NCBI RefSeq assembly: GCF_020892095.1 | Contig: NZ_AP024845.1 | Coordinates: 744,001 to 808,000 of the forward strand | Length of the DNA stretch: 64,000 nt | Direction of reading: 5' to 3' | Origin: Claveliimonas bilis | Lineage (GTDB): Bacteria > Bacillota > Clostridia > Lachnospirales > Lachnospiraceae | Part shown: piece by piece, positions 5,895-49,091 of the stretch | Layout: every line of letters begins with the position of its first letter | How positions within the stretch are numbered: the stretch's first letter is position 1 | Made by a program: the position numbers and the translations under genes | Notes under the pieces: generated by a model | What the model was told of the DNA's origin: nothing | What the model saw: the letters and a program-made list of their open reading frames with translations, nothing else | Databases searched by the model: none

Positions 5895-6193
5895 TAAAAA
5901 ATCACCCCTCACTTACAGCAAAGGGCGAATCATTCTCCGCGGTACCACCTTCATTTATTATACAGAAAACTTTATGCTTCTGCATTTCTCATCATGTTCT
6001 TTAACGGGAACGACTTCGTGACAGCTTACTTCTCTCATATAATCTGATCTCCTATCGGTTCAGCTGTCCGGCTCCAAAGCTACCTTCCACAGTTCCTCTT
6101 CCAAACTGTCTTTCAGCCTGAGGACAGTTCTCTCTTTTCGGACGGCTTCTCCTGTGTACTCCTCTTCTTCACAGCCTTTCTCTTCATAAGCTA
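5895..6193 (-). ncRNA. T-box leader (tRNA-Val sensing) of valS
   Basis: On the minus strand the T-box sequence AAGGTGGTACCGCGG occupies 5937-5951. It is followed by a terminator arm pair (GATTCGCCC at 5923-5931 with GGGTGA) and a T6 run at 5896-5901. Upstream, Stem I has an AGTA bulge element, an AGAGAA-type GA motif and a specifier loop GGAAG-GTA-GC; the specifier triplet GTA (6081-6083) is a valine codon. Uncharged tRNA-Val would stabilise the antiterminator and switch on valS. The ~300-nt length fits the class. The specifier was assigned by alignment by eye to the glyQS-type loop. Confidence 0.93.
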
Positions 6194-43928: not shown

Positions 43929-43943
43929 CACTGAAACAATGTA

Positions 43944-44024
43944 TTTCCCTACGTTGGCATTATCCAAATCAGGTTTCGGGTCGAAGCTTCTCCGCTTCCT
44001 CTCAGCCTGTGTACAAGCTCCCCG
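43944..44024 (-). ncRNA. TPP riboswitch of the thi operon
   Basis: Minus strand carries the THI-box blocks: GGGGAGC, CTGAGAGG, GACCCGAA, ACCTGATTTGGATAATGCC and GCGTAGGGAA-type (here ACGTAGGGAA). This is the thiamin pyrophosphate aptamer. Binding of TPP would favour the terminator at 43895-43928. Confidence 0.95.
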
Positions 44025-44038
44025 TTTTCACATGTTTT

Positions 44039-45060: not shown

Positions 45061-45933
45061 CTAAACGTCTCTTTTCTGAAATACTGTGCCTGCAAGAGCA
45101 AGGGCGCACACTGTGAAGGCCGCTGCTATGATAAGTGCCGAACGTACATCCGCGCCGCTCATTTCCATAGGGATCATACTGATCTTCCCGGTTACCGTGT
45201 GAGCCATAAAGTCAAAACTTTCAAATCCCAGCTTTTGGATCAGAAGGTTCACCATTCCGTAAAGCATCATGGTAAGATTCATGCACAGACATACACCCAG
45301 CAGCATACTGAGCACATTGCTTCTTAAGATCACGCTGACTGCTGTCAGAACGATCATAAATGCACAGTGGAGAACTGCCTGAATGCCAAAGTAAGAAAGG
45401 AACTCTCCCACATTTCCCCATTCCAGATATCCGAAAAGCACTCTTGCACTTATCACTTCCAGTATTGTAAAAATAACCAGAGTCAGTATGGTATAGAGGA
45501 CGACTGCCACTGTCTTGGCCGCCACAAGCCCGAACCGGTTCCTTACCTGACCGGCTGTATTCTTTACAAATCCGCTGTTTAAGTCTGCATTGGAAAAAAT
45601 AACAGTAAAGATCGCAATAAAAAGCGCAATAAATTTCCCCTGCACGTTAGCAAAAAACAGATCATATACTGTTACCCTTTCTCCAGGCGTTGTGGGAAGA
45701 GTCACCGTCAGCCCAAGATTCGGCGTCTCGTTCTCCCCTCCTTGGGAATCTGTGTAGCTGACCTCTGCATTTACCGGCGCTGTCTTCATGGCCTCTGTCT
45801 CTGCATTGTATTCATCAAAACTCATATAATTGGTAAACAGCACACAAAACACCATCACAAGCATGATGATATAAGCGCTCTTTGTGTGAAACATCCGGTA
45901 TACTTCCATTTTTATCATATTAAGCATGTGCAT
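45061..45933 (-). CDS. ABC-2 family transporter permease (lantibiotic/bacitracin-type)
   Basis: A 290-residue permease with about six membrane helices: one near the N-terminus (AYIIMLVMVFCVLFTNY), then an extracytoplasmic loop to ~100, then five more. FSNADLNSGFVKNTAGQVRNRFGLVAAK is a cytoplasmic coupling segment. It overlaps the ATPase gene by 14 bp. Pairs like this extrude or resist peptide antibiotics or move lipids. Confidence 0.87.
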   Translation of the reverse strand: MHMLNMIKMEVYRMFHTKSAYIIMLVMVFCVLFTNYMSFDEYNAETEAMKTAPVNAEVSYTDSQGGENETPNLGLTVTLPTTPGERVTVYDLFFANVQGKFIALFIAIFTVIFSNADLNSGFVKNTAGQVRNRFGLVAAKTVAVVLYTILTLVIFTILEVISARVLFGYLEWGNVGEFLSYFGIQAVLHCAFMIVLTAVSVILRSNVLSMLLGVCLCMNLTMMLYGMVNLLIQKLGFESFDFMAHTVTGKISMIPMEMSGADVRSALIIAAAFTVCALALAGTVFQKRDV

Positions 45934-46849
45934 TCCCTCCTGTCAGATTGAGAAAATAGGTTTCCAGCTCTTCATTTGTCACAGCAAGTCCTTTCACGGG
46001 AATGCCTGCTTTTGCAAATTCCATGTTAAGCCGGGCGCTCTCATCCAGCCGCTCAAACACGTATATATGCTCTTTGTCCATCACCTGGTACCGGCGTATC
46101 CCCAGCCGGTCCAGTACCGGAATGGCAAGTTCCGGTGACGAGAGAGTAATCTCCAGCCGCTCGCTGCATCTTTCCCGCAGCTCCTCATCTGTGATCTCCT
46201 GCAGAAGGGTTCCCTGATGAATGATCCCGTAATCCGTGGCGATCTTGGACAATTCCTCCAAAATATGACTGGATATGAGGATCGTCATATTTCTCTCTTT
46301 GTTCAGCCGCAGGATGGTTTCTCTTACCTCCGCAATCCCCTGGGGATCCAGACCGTTGATGGGCTCATCCAGCACCAGAAGATCCGGCTCGCCGATGAGA
46401 GCCATAGCAATCCCAAGCCTCTGCTTCATACCAAGCGAATACCTCTTCACATGTTTTTTCCCTACATCCTTCAGTCCCACAACCTCAAGAAGCTCTTCAA
46501 TATATCCCTTCTTCTGTACTCCCAGGAGAAGGCATTTCATTTTCATATTATCCCGGGCTGTCATATTTCCATAAAGTCCCGGACCCTCGATCAGACATCC
46601 CACTCTGGAACGGATCTGTTTCAGCTCCCTTCCTCTGCAGCCGAACATCTCGATCTCTCCTGCCGTCGGTGAAGCAAGTCCGCCGATCATTCTAAGAGTC
46701 GTTGTCTTTCCGGCTCCGTTCCTTCCGATAAATCCGTAAATAGCTCCTCGTTTTATATGCATGCTCACCTGATCGACCGCCTTATGCCTTCCGAACTGCT
46801 TTGTCAGGGCGCTGGTGCTAAGTAACAATTCACTCACCGTCTCTTTCAC
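45920..46849 (-). CDS. ABC transporter ATP-binding protein (BcrA-like)
   Basis: A 309-residue ATPase with Walker A GRNGAGKTT, signature YSLGMKQRLGIAMAL, Walker B LLVLDEPINGLD and SSHILEELSKIA. The ~90-residue C-terminal extension matches BcrA-type antimicrobial-peptide resistance ATPases. Second gene of the operon after the response regulator. Confidence 0.9.
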   Translation of the reverse strand: MKETVSELLLSTSALTKQFGRHKAVDQVSMHIKRGAIYGFIGRNGAGKTTTLRMIGGLASPTAGEIEMFGCRGRELKQIRSRVGCLIEGPGLYGNMTARDNMKMKCLLLGVQKKGYIEELLEVVGLKDVGKKHVKRYSLGMKQRLGIAMALIGEPDLLVLDEPINGLDPQGIAEVRETILRLNKERNMTILISSHILEELSKIATDYGIIHQGTLLQEITDEELRERCSERLEITLSSPELAIPVLDRLGIRRYQVMDKEHIYVFERLDESARLNMEFAKAGIPVKGLAVTNEELETYFLNLTGGNAHA

Positions 46850-46932
46850 TCCTTTTCTTTTTTATTTACAGGCTACAGTCTAAACTTCTTCCTTTAATCC
46901 TTCGCAAATAAATACTAAAGAAAAGGTAAAGA

Positions 46933-47634
46933 TTACTGGCAAATGCGGTATCCGATCCCCCAGATCGTCTCAATGTACTCTGTATCAGACACGCCTTTCA
47001 GTTTTTTGCGTATATTGCTGATATGGACATCCAATGTCTTTGTCTCACCCACATAGGGCTCCTGCCATGCATATTCAAAAATTTCCTCCTTACTGTACAC
47101 CTTCTTCGGATGAGAAAGAAGCAGCTCTAAAATAGCAAACTCCTGTCTGGTAAGGCGGGGAAGCTCACATCCTCCCGCTGTCACCGTAAAGGTATCCTTG
47201 TCAAGGGTCATGTCTTTATAGACGATCTTCCGTTCATCCGCCCCTTCCTTTGGTCCTTTTCTCCGAAGCTGCACTTCTATGCGGGCCTGAACTTCACGGA
47301 TTTCAAAAGGCTTTGTAATGTAATCATCCGCCCCGCTTTTAAGCAGATCGATCTTATCATCCAGCATATCCCTTGCGGTGAGAACAATCACGGGAGTGTC
47401 TCCCTTCCCCCTGATCTCTTCAAGCACCTTCTCCCCCGGAATACCGGGCAGCATCAGATCCAGTAGCACCAGATCATAGTCTTCCATTTTCATAAGAAGA
47501 CGGGCCTCTGTTCCGGAAAATGCCTGGCTGCACTCATACCCTGCCTTTTCCAGTGCTTCTTTCAGAAGATTGTTAATATTTGTATCGTCATCTATGATAA
47601 GAATACGCTCCACTTCCGCGACTTCTCCTTTCAT
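46933..47634 (-). CDS. OmpR/PhoB family response regulator
   Basis: A 233-residue two-domain regulator: receiver with the acidic pocket DDD, phospho-acceptor Asp in LVLLDLMLPG and Lys in YITKPF; C-terminal winged helix with FEYAWQEPYVGETKTLDVHISNIRKKL and YIETIWGIGYR. Start placed at 47634 after GAGGAG; a GTG nearer the receiver (VERILIIDDD) is possible. First gene of the RR-ABC-ABC-HK operon, so it likely controls that exporter. Confidence 0.92.
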   Translation of the reverse strand: MKGEVAEVERILIIDDDTNINNLLKEALEKAGYECSQAFSGTEARLLMKMEDYDLVLLDLMLPGIPGEKVLEEIRGKGDTPVIVLTARDMLDDKIDLLKSGADDYITKPFEIREVQARIEVQLRRKGPKEGADERKIVYKDMTLDKDTFTVTAGGCELPRLTRQEFAILELLLSHPKKVYSKEEIFEYAWQEPYVGETKTLDVHISNIRKKLKGVSDTEYIETIWGIGYRICQ

Positions 47635-47641
47635 GTCCACT

Positions 47642-47776: not shown

Positions 47777-47805
47777 TTTACATTAAGGCTTTTAAATGCT
47801 ATAAT
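47777..47805 (+). promoter_or_regulatory. Promoter of the mgtE leader transcript
   Basis: -35 TTTACA (47777-47782), 17-bp spacer, -10 TATAAT (47800-47805), 34 bp before the leader ORF start. Confidence 0.7.
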
Positions 47806-47838
47806 AAACAAACTTTTACGGTAAAGGAGGCAAAATAT

Positions 47839-47931
47839 ATGGACAGTTGTGATAATCAAGGTCAACGTGCATACAGCGATGGGAACGACTTGAATTATAT
47901 TTCAAGTGTCTGTATTTATGCCCTTTTGTAA
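47839..47931 (+). CDS. Leader peptide ORF upstream of mgtE (30 residues)
   Basis: ATG at 47839 lies 8 nt after a near-perfect AAAGGAGG site and opens a 30-codon frame, MDSCDNQGQRAYSDGNDLNY then ISSVCIYALL and TAA. The strong ribosome site, lack of any larger gene, and position 110 bp before the transporter start point to a regulatory leader peptide. Codons for SDGN overlap the RNA segment (47877-47885) that can pair with the 5' arm of the terminator downstream. I do not recognise the peptide; function is inferred. Confidence 0.6.
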   Translation: MDSCDNQGQRAYSDGNDLNYISSVCIYALL

Positions 47932-47944
47932 TATATTTAAGCCT

Positions 47945-48010
47945 TTTCCATCGTCAGAGAATCTCACAACCATATGTGTTTGTGCAGCATTTAGCTGTGA
48001 TGGATTTTTT
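47945..48010 (+). terminator. Attenuator-like terminator between leader ORF and mgtE
   Basis: TCCATCGT (47947-47954) pairs with GTGATGGA (47997-48004), two G-T pairs, followed by T6 (48005-48010). Loop holds a second small stem CACAA/TTGTG. The 5' arm can alternatively pair 9 bp with CGATGGGAA inside the leader ORF (47877-47885). Confidence 0.5.
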
Positions 48011-48041
48011 ATGCCCTTTTTTGGGAGATAGGAGGCTTAAT

Positions 48042-49091
48042 TTGAAAAGAAAAAATATCTTAACGGACATTCGCTCAATCAATTCTTACAACATCGAAGA
48101 AATCGGCAGCCTGATTACAACAAATTATATTAAAATATCCCGGGAATTGTCTGTCCGCCAGGCAATGCGGGAACTGATCAAAGAGGCAGGGAAGCATGAT
48201 AATATTTCAACCATCTATGTAGTCGATCAAAACGACCGATTTTATGGTGCGATTGATCTGAAAGATCTGATTGCTGCCAGAAAATACGATTCTCTGGACA
48301 ACATTATCACCCGATCCTACCCTTATCTTCTCGATCATGAAAATATATCGGAGAATATAGAAAAGATCAAAGATTATGGACAAGATTCTCTTCCCGTATT
48401 AACCAGTGAAGGAAAAATACTCGGCATCTTAACATCTCGGGATATGCTCGAAGTTATAGATGATGAAATGGGCGACGACTATGCAAAACTTGGCGGCTTA
48501 ACGAAAGAAGAAGATTTAAAAGAGACAACAAAAGAAAGTATGAAAAAGCGCCTTCCATGGCTCATTATCCTATTGTTTTTGGGTATGGGCGTTTCTACAG
48601 TGGTCGGAGTTTTTGAAAATATTGTTGCGGTACTGCCCATTATTATTTGTTTCCAATCATTAATTTTAGATATGGCCGGGAATGTGGGAACACAGTCTCT
48701 GGCAGTAACGATAAGGGTTCTTATGGATGAGGAAATGGACGGAAAGGATAAGCTTTCCCTTGTTATAAAGGAATTAAAAATCGGATTGGGGAATGGTATC
48801 CTGCTTGGATTTCTGTCTTTATTTTTCCTTGGAATATATATTTATTTCTTTAAAAATTACCGCTTTTTTCATGCATTGATGATATCCGGATGTGTCGGTA
48901 CGGCATTATTGGTGTCTATGGCCATATCAAGCCTGGTCGGAACGCTGATTCCGCTGTTTTTTCATAAAATCAAAGTGGATCCTGCAATAGCGTCAGGCCC
49001 GCTCATTACAACCGTCAATGATCTGGTAGCCGTCGTCACTTATTATGGACTGTCATGGCTCTTCCTGATTCAATGGAGACATTTCATATAA
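48042..49091 (+). CDS. mgtE: MgtE-type magnesium transporter lacking most of the N domain
   Basis: A 349-residue membrane transporter. It begins with a TTG start at 48042 after ATAGGAGG. Residues ~20-150 hold two CBS motifs (AIDLKDLIAARKYD, then GILTSRDMLEVID), and residues ~190-345 hold five membrane helices with the pore-region LILDMAGNVGTQSLAVTIR and the final ASGPLITTVNDLVAVVTYYG. Typical MgtE (~450 residues) has a ~120-residue helical N domain before the CBS pair; here only ~30 residues remain. Gating through CBS Mg2+ sites may persist. Likely controlled by the leader ORF and attenuator just upstream. Confidence 0.88.
   Translation: MKRKNILTDIRSINSYNIEEIGSLITTNYIKISRELSVRQAMRELIKEAGKHDNISTIYVVDQNDRFYGAIDLKDLIAARKYDSLDNIITRSYPYLLDHENISENIEKIKDYGQDSLPVLTSEGKILGILTSRDMLEVIDDEMGDDYAKLGGLTKEEDLKETTKESMKKRLPWLIILLFLGMGVSTVVGVFENIVAVLPIIICFQSLILDMAGNVGTQSLAVTIRVLMDEEMDGKDKLSLVIKELKIGLGNGILLGFLSLFFLGIYIYFFKNYRFFHALMISGCVGTALLVSMAISSLVGTLIPLFFHKIKVDPAIASGPLITTVNDLVAVVTYYGLSWLFLIQWRHFI

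Follow-up and report, generated by a model that had tools for sequence, protein, structure and literature searches.

A conserved leader-peptide family upstream of mgtE in gut Clostridia that probably links ribosome progress to transcription of a magnesium transporter gene

Enterobacteria are known to sense Mg2+ through failure of the ribosome on a leader peptide. For MgtL, the leader peptide of mgtA, two reports state that Mg2+ shortage favours dissociation of the ribosome on the EPDP stretch, and that Glu2/Asp4 substitution removes the effect (PMC11282234, PMC11552253). Attenuators of the trp/ilv type, such as the one with the Corynebacterium ilvB uORF motif, combine an ORF, an antiterminator and an intrinsic terminator that have one arm in common, with translation deciding between the stems (PMC11109978). 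The M-box (ykoK, RF00380) controls MgtE-type genes in the same order in which the leader family described below occurs. In Thioalkalivibrio, the motif SRC-65-1 is likewise located upstream of mgtE but, unlike the Clostridial leader, it is reported as a strong riboswitch candidate without a uORF, found only in one genus (PMC11109978).

Here, we analysed a window of 64,000 nucleotides from Claveliimonas bilis (contig NZ_AP024845.1, positions 744,001 to 808,000), in which a small ORF precedes mgtE. Like MgtL of enterobacterial mgtA, and also mgtP of mgtCBR and corL of corA, it is short and occupies the leader of a gene for a Mg2+ transporter. It further resembles MgtL in having acidic residues at the very start (Asp2 and Asp5 in the Clostridial leader, Glu2 and Asp4 in MgtL) and in the alternative folds of the leader RNA, where translation of the whole ORF is predicted to turn the gene off (PMC11552253, PMC11282234). 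Different from MgtL, the Clostridial leaders have no EPDP/proline motif (0.4% proline at residues 2-6 of 51 leaders) and end in an intrinsic terminator rather than the Rho-dependent one reported there, and they belong to another phylum and another transporter family, with strongly preferred CGA and AGU codons. Compared to the trp/ilv type, the target is an ion transporter, there is no run of codons for a product amino acid, and the sensor candidate lies in the start of the peptide. The features of the locus are as follows.

47777-47805, + strand: promoter-like site (TTTACA, 17-nt spacer, TATAAT, TG before the -10), based on an 11/12 consensus match only
47823-47830, + strand: Shine-Dalgarno site of the leader ORF, AAAGGAGG, 8 nt before the ATG, based on sequence and the relatives' alignment
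47839-47931, + strand: leader ORF of 30 codons, MDSCDNQGQRAYSDGNDLNYISSVCIYALL, based on translation and conservation in relatives
47839-47868, + strand: conserved leader-peptide start of the family M-D-x-C/G/S-D-S-x-G/S-R-S, based on relatives
47876-47885, + strand: R1, putative 5' arm of the antiterminator, within codons 13-16, based on folding, pairing controls and covariation
47888-47907, + strand: small hairpin inside the ORF (ACTTGAA/TTCAAGT), between R1 and R2, based on folding
47944-47954, + strand: R2, putative arm common to the antiterminator (with R1) and the terminator (with R3), based on folding and covariation
47997-48004, + strand: R3, 3' arm of the terminator stem, GTGATGGA, based on sequence, folding and covariation
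48005-48010, + strand: T6 run of the intrinsic terminator, based on sequence and conserved in the relatives' alignment
48011-48022, + strand: ATGCCCTTTTTT, right behind the terminator, conserved in a large subgroup of the alignment, no assigned role
48030-48035, + strand: Shine-Dalgarno site of mgtE, AGGAGG, based on sequence
48042-49091, + strand: mgtE, TTG start, 349 aa, with a CBS pair and membrane domain and MgtE_N missing, based on domain search

A sequence-only reading had described here a 30-codon ORF with a near-perfect Shine-Dalgarno site ahead of mgtE, a 9-bp pairing that overlaps the 5' arm of a terminator-like fold, and the overall layout of a translation-coupled attenuator. These elements are all present: 47877-47885 (CGATGGGAA) is complementary to 47945-47953 over 9 bp including one G-U, and 47947-47954 pairs with 47997-48004, followed by six T. 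The stretch from R1 to R2 (47869-47957) had a predicted folding energy of -22.2 kcal/mol, which none of 200 dinucleotide shuffles reached (z -3.8), and the terminator stretch (47944-48010) one of -19.1 kcal/mol, below nearly all shuffles (2 of 200 as low, z -3.2). Since R2 is common to both stems, R1:R2 and R2:R3 are mutually exclusive. The promoter-like site is weak by itself, with 1.3 sites of that quality on average in shuffles of the 401-base stretch, and it fits a transcript start shortly before the leader ORF. The small hairpin inside the ORF is also weak (z -2.0, 7 of 200 shuffles equally low), with similar ones seen by eye in the relatives' alignment, and is possibly a pause hairpin. 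TATGCCCTTTT was found twice, at 47917-47927 at the end of the leader ORF and at 48010-48020 right behind the terminator, the second copy being widely conserved in the alignment and the first conserved in a subgroup; both copies are possibly polymerase pause sites. A further pairing, of GTTGTGA (47846-47852) with TCACAAC in the terminator loop (47964-47970), is possible in the window and close relatives. Such a pairing of at least 6 nt was found in 9 of 49 leaders compared to a mean of 8.8 for swapped leaders (4.4 for shuffles), and it is not claimed.

No MgtE_N match was found in the MgtE of the window, while both relatives scanned (L002 and L003) have one, and a second genome of the species carries the same short mgtE. 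The N domain of MgtE is involved in Mg2+ gating, and gating of the window protein may therefore differ. Divergent from mgtE, a response regulator and ABC transporter genes occupy 45061-47640 on the - strand, the best NCBIfam score of the latter being that of a lantibiotic protection ATPase, below its cut-off. Elsewhere in the window, Rfam models matched a T-box leader (5918-6181, - strand) and a TPP riboswitch (43929-44034, - strand).

The peptide had been called unfamiliar in the sequence-only reading, and indeed it matched no Pfam or NCBIfam family. Rfam gave no match at the leader at gathering scores, and at E values up to 10 only four, far below their cut-offs. A search with the 30-residue peptide across 397 genomes of the family matched 7, namely the window genome, a conspecific genome whose leader is identical, three (L033, L035, L036) with the match directly upstream of mgtE, and two (G074, G096) with matches not near mgtE, which were taken for chance. 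Further leaders were revealed by reading the upstreams of mgtE orthologues, and the window ORF is a member of a family with the start M-D-[S/G/N]-[C/G/S]-D-S-x-[G/S]-R-S, directly upstream of mgtE. The DNA start pattern GGAGG N4-11 ATGGACAGYTGYGAYAR, scanned over 84,980 species genomes, gave 47 loci, of which 44 have an MgtE match next, two an apparent 5' remnant of mgtE, and one (L064) ends at a contig edge. The MgtE match lies at most 2.6 kb downstream in 42 loci, three of which (L039, L059, L078) match only part of MgtE, and L047 also precedes an MgtE match. L083 is apparently the same contig as L033/L174, having equal length (49,358) and the same leader, and there mgtE follows. In L084 and L057, mgtE-like first codons were seen by eye and are then lost, and no MgtE was found in the L084 genome. 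The leader also precedes a different MgtE subfamily in L038, L075 and L052 (~41% identical to the L015 MgtE and 24-28% to that of the window). Sequence titles name Lachnospiraceae or its genera in 25 of the 47 loci, and the other taxa include Agathobaculum, Ruminococcus, Christensenellaceae, Peptoniphilus and one labelled Riflebacteria. The leader start on this last contig (L049, Candidatus Riflebacteria) is similar to that of L080, with MDSCDSSEQSNSCD in both, and the contig is possibly misbinned. When a looser pattern was applied to 391 genomes across the class, it matched in two of them, each time before mgtE; the window itself escapes that pattern.

For an unbiased set, 104 upstreams of mgtE orthologues were fetched regardless of leader, comprising 101 of the 104 original places plus G008, G043 and G046, and leaving out G329 (a conspecific genome whose leader is identical), G367 (matching only in part) and G072 (with 84 bases of upstream). 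Leaders were called by a simple motif score together with a Shine-Dalgarno requirement. Scores of at least 5 were reached by 54 of the 104 upstreams, compared to 5 on the reverse strand and a shuffled mean of 6.4, and scores of at least 7 by 41, compared to 0 and 0.2, respectively. Three upstreams that passed the score (L007, L123, L130) were removed by eye, leaving 51 leaders. The other 53 upstreams have no leader by the scoring rule, which counts against the proposal and indicates that within this mgtE clade the device is widespread without being universal. Among these 53, an acidic residue 2 together with CGA was found in three compared to none on the reverse strand, and CGA alone in 21 compared to 10. 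Divergent leader candidates, uncounted, were noticed by eye in seven (L098, L118, L142, L160, L164, L166, L167), with starts including MEGSDGAGRS and MSDSDGGGRS. One mgtE orthologue without a recognised leader has a Clostridiales-1 RNA (RF01699) upstream (L157, 247-411).

Conservation in the 51 leaders is concentrated in the start of the peptide. Asp2 is present in 50 (GAC 31, GAT 19), Asp5 in 44 (GAT 28, GAC 16) and Gly8 in 30, encoded by four codons, and 15 leaders have Gly or Ser in place of Cys4. Where the R site holds Arg, its codon is CGA in 42 of 43 cases (eight leaders have no such Arg), compared to 9/96 for other Arg codons of the leaders and 25/326 in coding sequence upstream of the mgtE match. 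Similarly, Ser codons 3, 6 and 10 are AGT in 29/33, 36/40 and 22/27 cases, respectively, compared to 58/363 in upstream coding sequence; these reference counts include some non-coding triplets, contributed by the window and L158, two of the 51 upstreams. Asp codons that vary beside strongly preferred CGA and AGT indicate that the peptide and certain codons are both under constraint. The window copy, having CAA at codon 9 and CGT at codon 10 in place of the usual CGA AGT, counts against the codon part. Residues 2-6 are 39% acidic and 57% Ser/Gly/Cys/Asn, and proline makes up 0.8% of residues 7-11. After codon 10 the peptide varies, with no position above 1.2 bits from codon 11 to 24 and leader lengths of 24-52. 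As the first ten positions served for selection, their conservation is partly by construction, but the reverse-strand and shuffled controls show that it is real.

The two stems were then compared across 92 distinct leaders, of which 76 have a terminator candidate by rule and 16 do not, the rules having replaced an earlier energy-best terminator finder that was noisy. Forty-five of the 76 carry the tail motif T4+[AG][TC]GC[CT] and 31 lack it. The unbiased set contributes no more than 17 of the 45, and 13 of these 17 reach an R1:R2 score of 13; the strict tail T4+[AG][TC]GCCC occurs in 13 of the 51 unbiased leader loci. R2 was defined solely by its fit to R3, and its best partner within the ORF was then sought. 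In the 45 tail-motif leaders the R1:R2 score averaged 18.04. Shuffling the ORF codons lowered this mean to 12.57 (highest of 200 runs 13.94), and exchanging R2 among loci lowered it to 14.81 (highest of 200 runs 16.27). With a mean above all 200 swaps, the predicted R1:R2 pairing is locus-specific. A score of at least 13 was reached by 38 of the 45, compared to at most 27 after codon shuffling and at most 35 after swapping. Of these 38 leaders, 36 have an R1 that begins between nt 30 and 41 of the ORF. The stop codon lies a median of 28.5 nt before R2 (range 8-217, n=38), and the pairing occurs in variants of the same arrangement, such as GATGG:CCATC, GCGGTG:CACCGC, TGTGGTG:CACCACA and GCGGTA:TACCGC. 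Among the 31 leaders without the tail motif, 18 reach score 13, many of them with the pairing located elsewhere; in the absence of a control, no claim is based on them. Under an earlier rule with 82 leaders, since superseded, stretches of at least 6 shared by the terminator 3' arm and the ORF were found in 25, compared to a codon-shuffle mean of 5.5.

Covariation was assessed in an alignment of 25 of 31 reference leaders, from which L013, L144, L038, L054, L075 and L063 were left out. The R1:R2 helix had 91.0% of cells paired, 21 cells changed on two sides and a covariation of 0.320, and the R2:R3 helix 88.7%, 20 and 0.300, values matched by 0 of 500 shuffles each; slid versions of the R1:R2 helix were lower on all three measures. 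Less striking were the numbers of pairs with two-sided change, 5 compared to 3.3 for R1:R2 (37 of 500 shuffles as high) and 5 compared to 3.6 for R2:R3 (76/500), the latter helix giving 204/500 for pair types. Because the 25 leaders were chosen for the tail motif and the R1:R2 score, the test leans towards structure. An unguided consensus fold of the alignment gave the terminator stem only, as would be expected if two stems compete. When the R1-to-R2 stretch was folded alone, R1:R2 pairs formed in 22/22 leaders, all preselected for them. In L044, a 4-base gap at codons 8-10 places R1 in another reading frame, which indicates that R1 is maintained as RNA rather than as peptide. On the sequence side, the refuting condition set with the sequence-only reading was a lack of conservation of the peptide or pairings in relatives; instead, the peptide start and both stems recur upstream of orthologous mgtE, with covariation, which supports the proposed layout.

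What an attenuator requires at the sequence level is met: a conserved ORF with a ribosome-binding site, an intrinsic terminator before mgtE, and a mutually exclusive antiterminator with its 5' arm in the ORF, the last being clear for the 45 leaders with the tail motif. As a prediction from sequence comparison, the attenuator itself is well supported, and the progress of the ribosome through the tiny ORF probably decides whether mgtE is read in many gut Clostridia. It rests on no expression data; the Mg2+ response and the dependence on ORF translation are inferred. The fuller reading, in which early halting or drop-off of the ribosome at low Mg2+ would let mgtE be read through transcription attenuation, is one we consider likely, though clearly short of certain. 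RNA polymerase would start near 47812, as inferred from the promoter-like site, and transcribe the leader ORF, whose translation is itself an inference. A ribosome moving through the whole ORF would, once past codon 12, disrupt the 5' half of the long R1..R2 stem; with R1 unavailable, R2 would pair with R3, and the intrinsic terminator, at which termination by the polymerase is inferred, would end transcription before mgtE. If the ribosome halted or fell off within about the first ten codons (M-D-x-x-D-S-x-G-R-S), R1 would be free just beyond, R1:R2 would form first, no terminator would arise and mgtE would be transcribed. The trigger is most likely low cytoplasmic Mg2+: for a Mg2+ importer, expression at low Mg2+ is sensible, and low Mg2+ should thus cause early loss or halting of the ribosome. 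That Mg2+ is the signal, and that the ribosome drops off rather than stalls, are both inferred. As in enterobacterial MgtL, the sensor may be the very beginning of the nascent chain, which carries Asp2 and Asp5 separated by small residues, and the wobble-decoded codons CGA and AGU may assist halting in most relatives. Two spaced Asp without proline may be a weak destabiliser.

The spacing of CGA and R1 bears on this reading. Counted from the C of CGA, R1 starts a median of 12 nt downstream, and its position is correlated with that of CGA (Spearman 0.43, p 0.004, n 42): with CGA at nt 19, R1 is at 30-34 in 6/8 leaders, and with CGA at nt 25, it is at 35-38 in 25/34. Given typical footprint sizes, this fits a ribosome with CGA in the A site and its front edge ending where R1 begins. 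The spread of R1 is no tighter from CGA (SD 4.02) than from ATG (SD 4.04). With a footprint of typical size, a ribosome resting on the stop codon would overlap neither of the two arms R1 and R2, so that the OFF state has to be explained by timing or steric effects.

The main rival retains the attenuator but inverts the state of the ribosome, and we regard it as unlikely. In such a Mg2+-dependent arrest peptide, arrest at G-R-S (CGA AGT) at high Mg2+ would let the leading edge of the ribosome cover the start of R1 and lead to the terminator, while at low Mg2+ the ribosome would run on and R1 would become free. The codon-specific conservation of CGA AGT right before R1, and the tendency of R1 to move with CGA at the median distance given above, are compatible with this, but the anatomy fits it less well: the spread of R1 is equal from CGA and ATG, a ribosome with CGA in the A site would by its usual footprint end at about the R1 start and leave R1 free rather than covered, and some members lack CGA or the G-R-S triplet. 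Moreover, the ORF runs on past R1, by a median of 47 nt (30-82) from the R1 end to the stop codon in 38 leaders, which would be needless for a stop at G-R-S. Rather less probable still is an amino-acid or general translation-stress attenuator, in which slow Ser (AGU), Arg (CGA), Cys or Asp codons would report tRNA charging or ribosome inhibition instead of Mg2+. The prevalence of AGT among Ser codons and CGA for Arg would suit it, and related leaders are described as responding to proline limitation (Salmonella mgtP; PMC3641672) and to lack of EF-P at proline codons (mgtL; PMC6460261). However, an MgtE match or apparent remnant is next in 46/47 loci, the last being cut off, this linkage includes the second MgtE subfamily (L038, L075, L052), and there is no run of a single amino acid, with even Cys4 replaced in 15/51 leaders.

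Two further explanations would give the ORF another role or none. We find it very improbable that GACAGTTGTGATAGT...CGAAGT is the aptamer of a structured RNA sensor (riboswitch) and the ORF incidental: the D2, D5, C4 and G8 codons differ at their third positions without a change of amino acid, the block is shortened in frame in three other leaders (L003, L005, L091), and no Rfam match reached the gathering score. These points stand against the strong nucleotide conservation of the start block and the frame-shifting gap of L044, both of which a riboswitch would explain; the pairing possible in a subgroup between GTTGTGA, at the ORF start, and the TCACAAC of the terminator loop would also favour it, but was not above swaps (9/49 compared to 8.8). 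That the ORF encodes a functional microprotein, for example a partner of MgtE, we can hardly credit, despite its conserved start and Shine-Dalgarno site, given a length of 24-52 with little conservation after codon 10 in the 51 leaders, a back half constrained as RNA pairing, and a window peptide without a Pfam or NCBIfam family. Ribosome-controlled attenuation with early halting or drop-off at low Mg2+ remains our preferred reading.

The absence of an M-box aptamer, also noted from the sequence alone, held up: no RF00380 covariance-model match was found in the window or in its genome, where stricter filters applied and 37 of 105 first-look candidates were scored. An M-box was found in 9 of 61 genomes surveyed, by coordinates just upstream of an MgtE paralogue in 4 of the 9, and none was found in the other 12 of the 13 surveyed genomes with this MgtE clade (stricter filters, at most 37 candidates scored per genome). 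Of 40 leaderless loci scanned among the 53, one (L141) has an M-box. Our literature searches did not find the leader family described; subscription papers and preprints were outside their scope, so a description elsewhere is possible. As far as searched, the regulatory logic is known and the peptide family is not, and the family looks like an undescribed counterpart of the enterobacterial Mg2+ leader peptides. Whether it forms a Clostridial class of Mg2+ sensing independent of MgtL, in which the di-Asp chain and CGA/AGU would make the ribosome the sensor and replace the M-box before one mgtE clade, we regard as evenly balanced.

If the preferred reading is true, gut Clostridia would have converged on the ribosome as Mg2+ sensor, and the control of mgtE would be accounted for where no M-box is found. 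The 92 distinct leaders would offer some 90 natural variants for finding what aborts ribosomes at low Mg2+ without prolines, and the preferred CGA/AGU codons make the contribution of decoding directly testable by synonymous changes.
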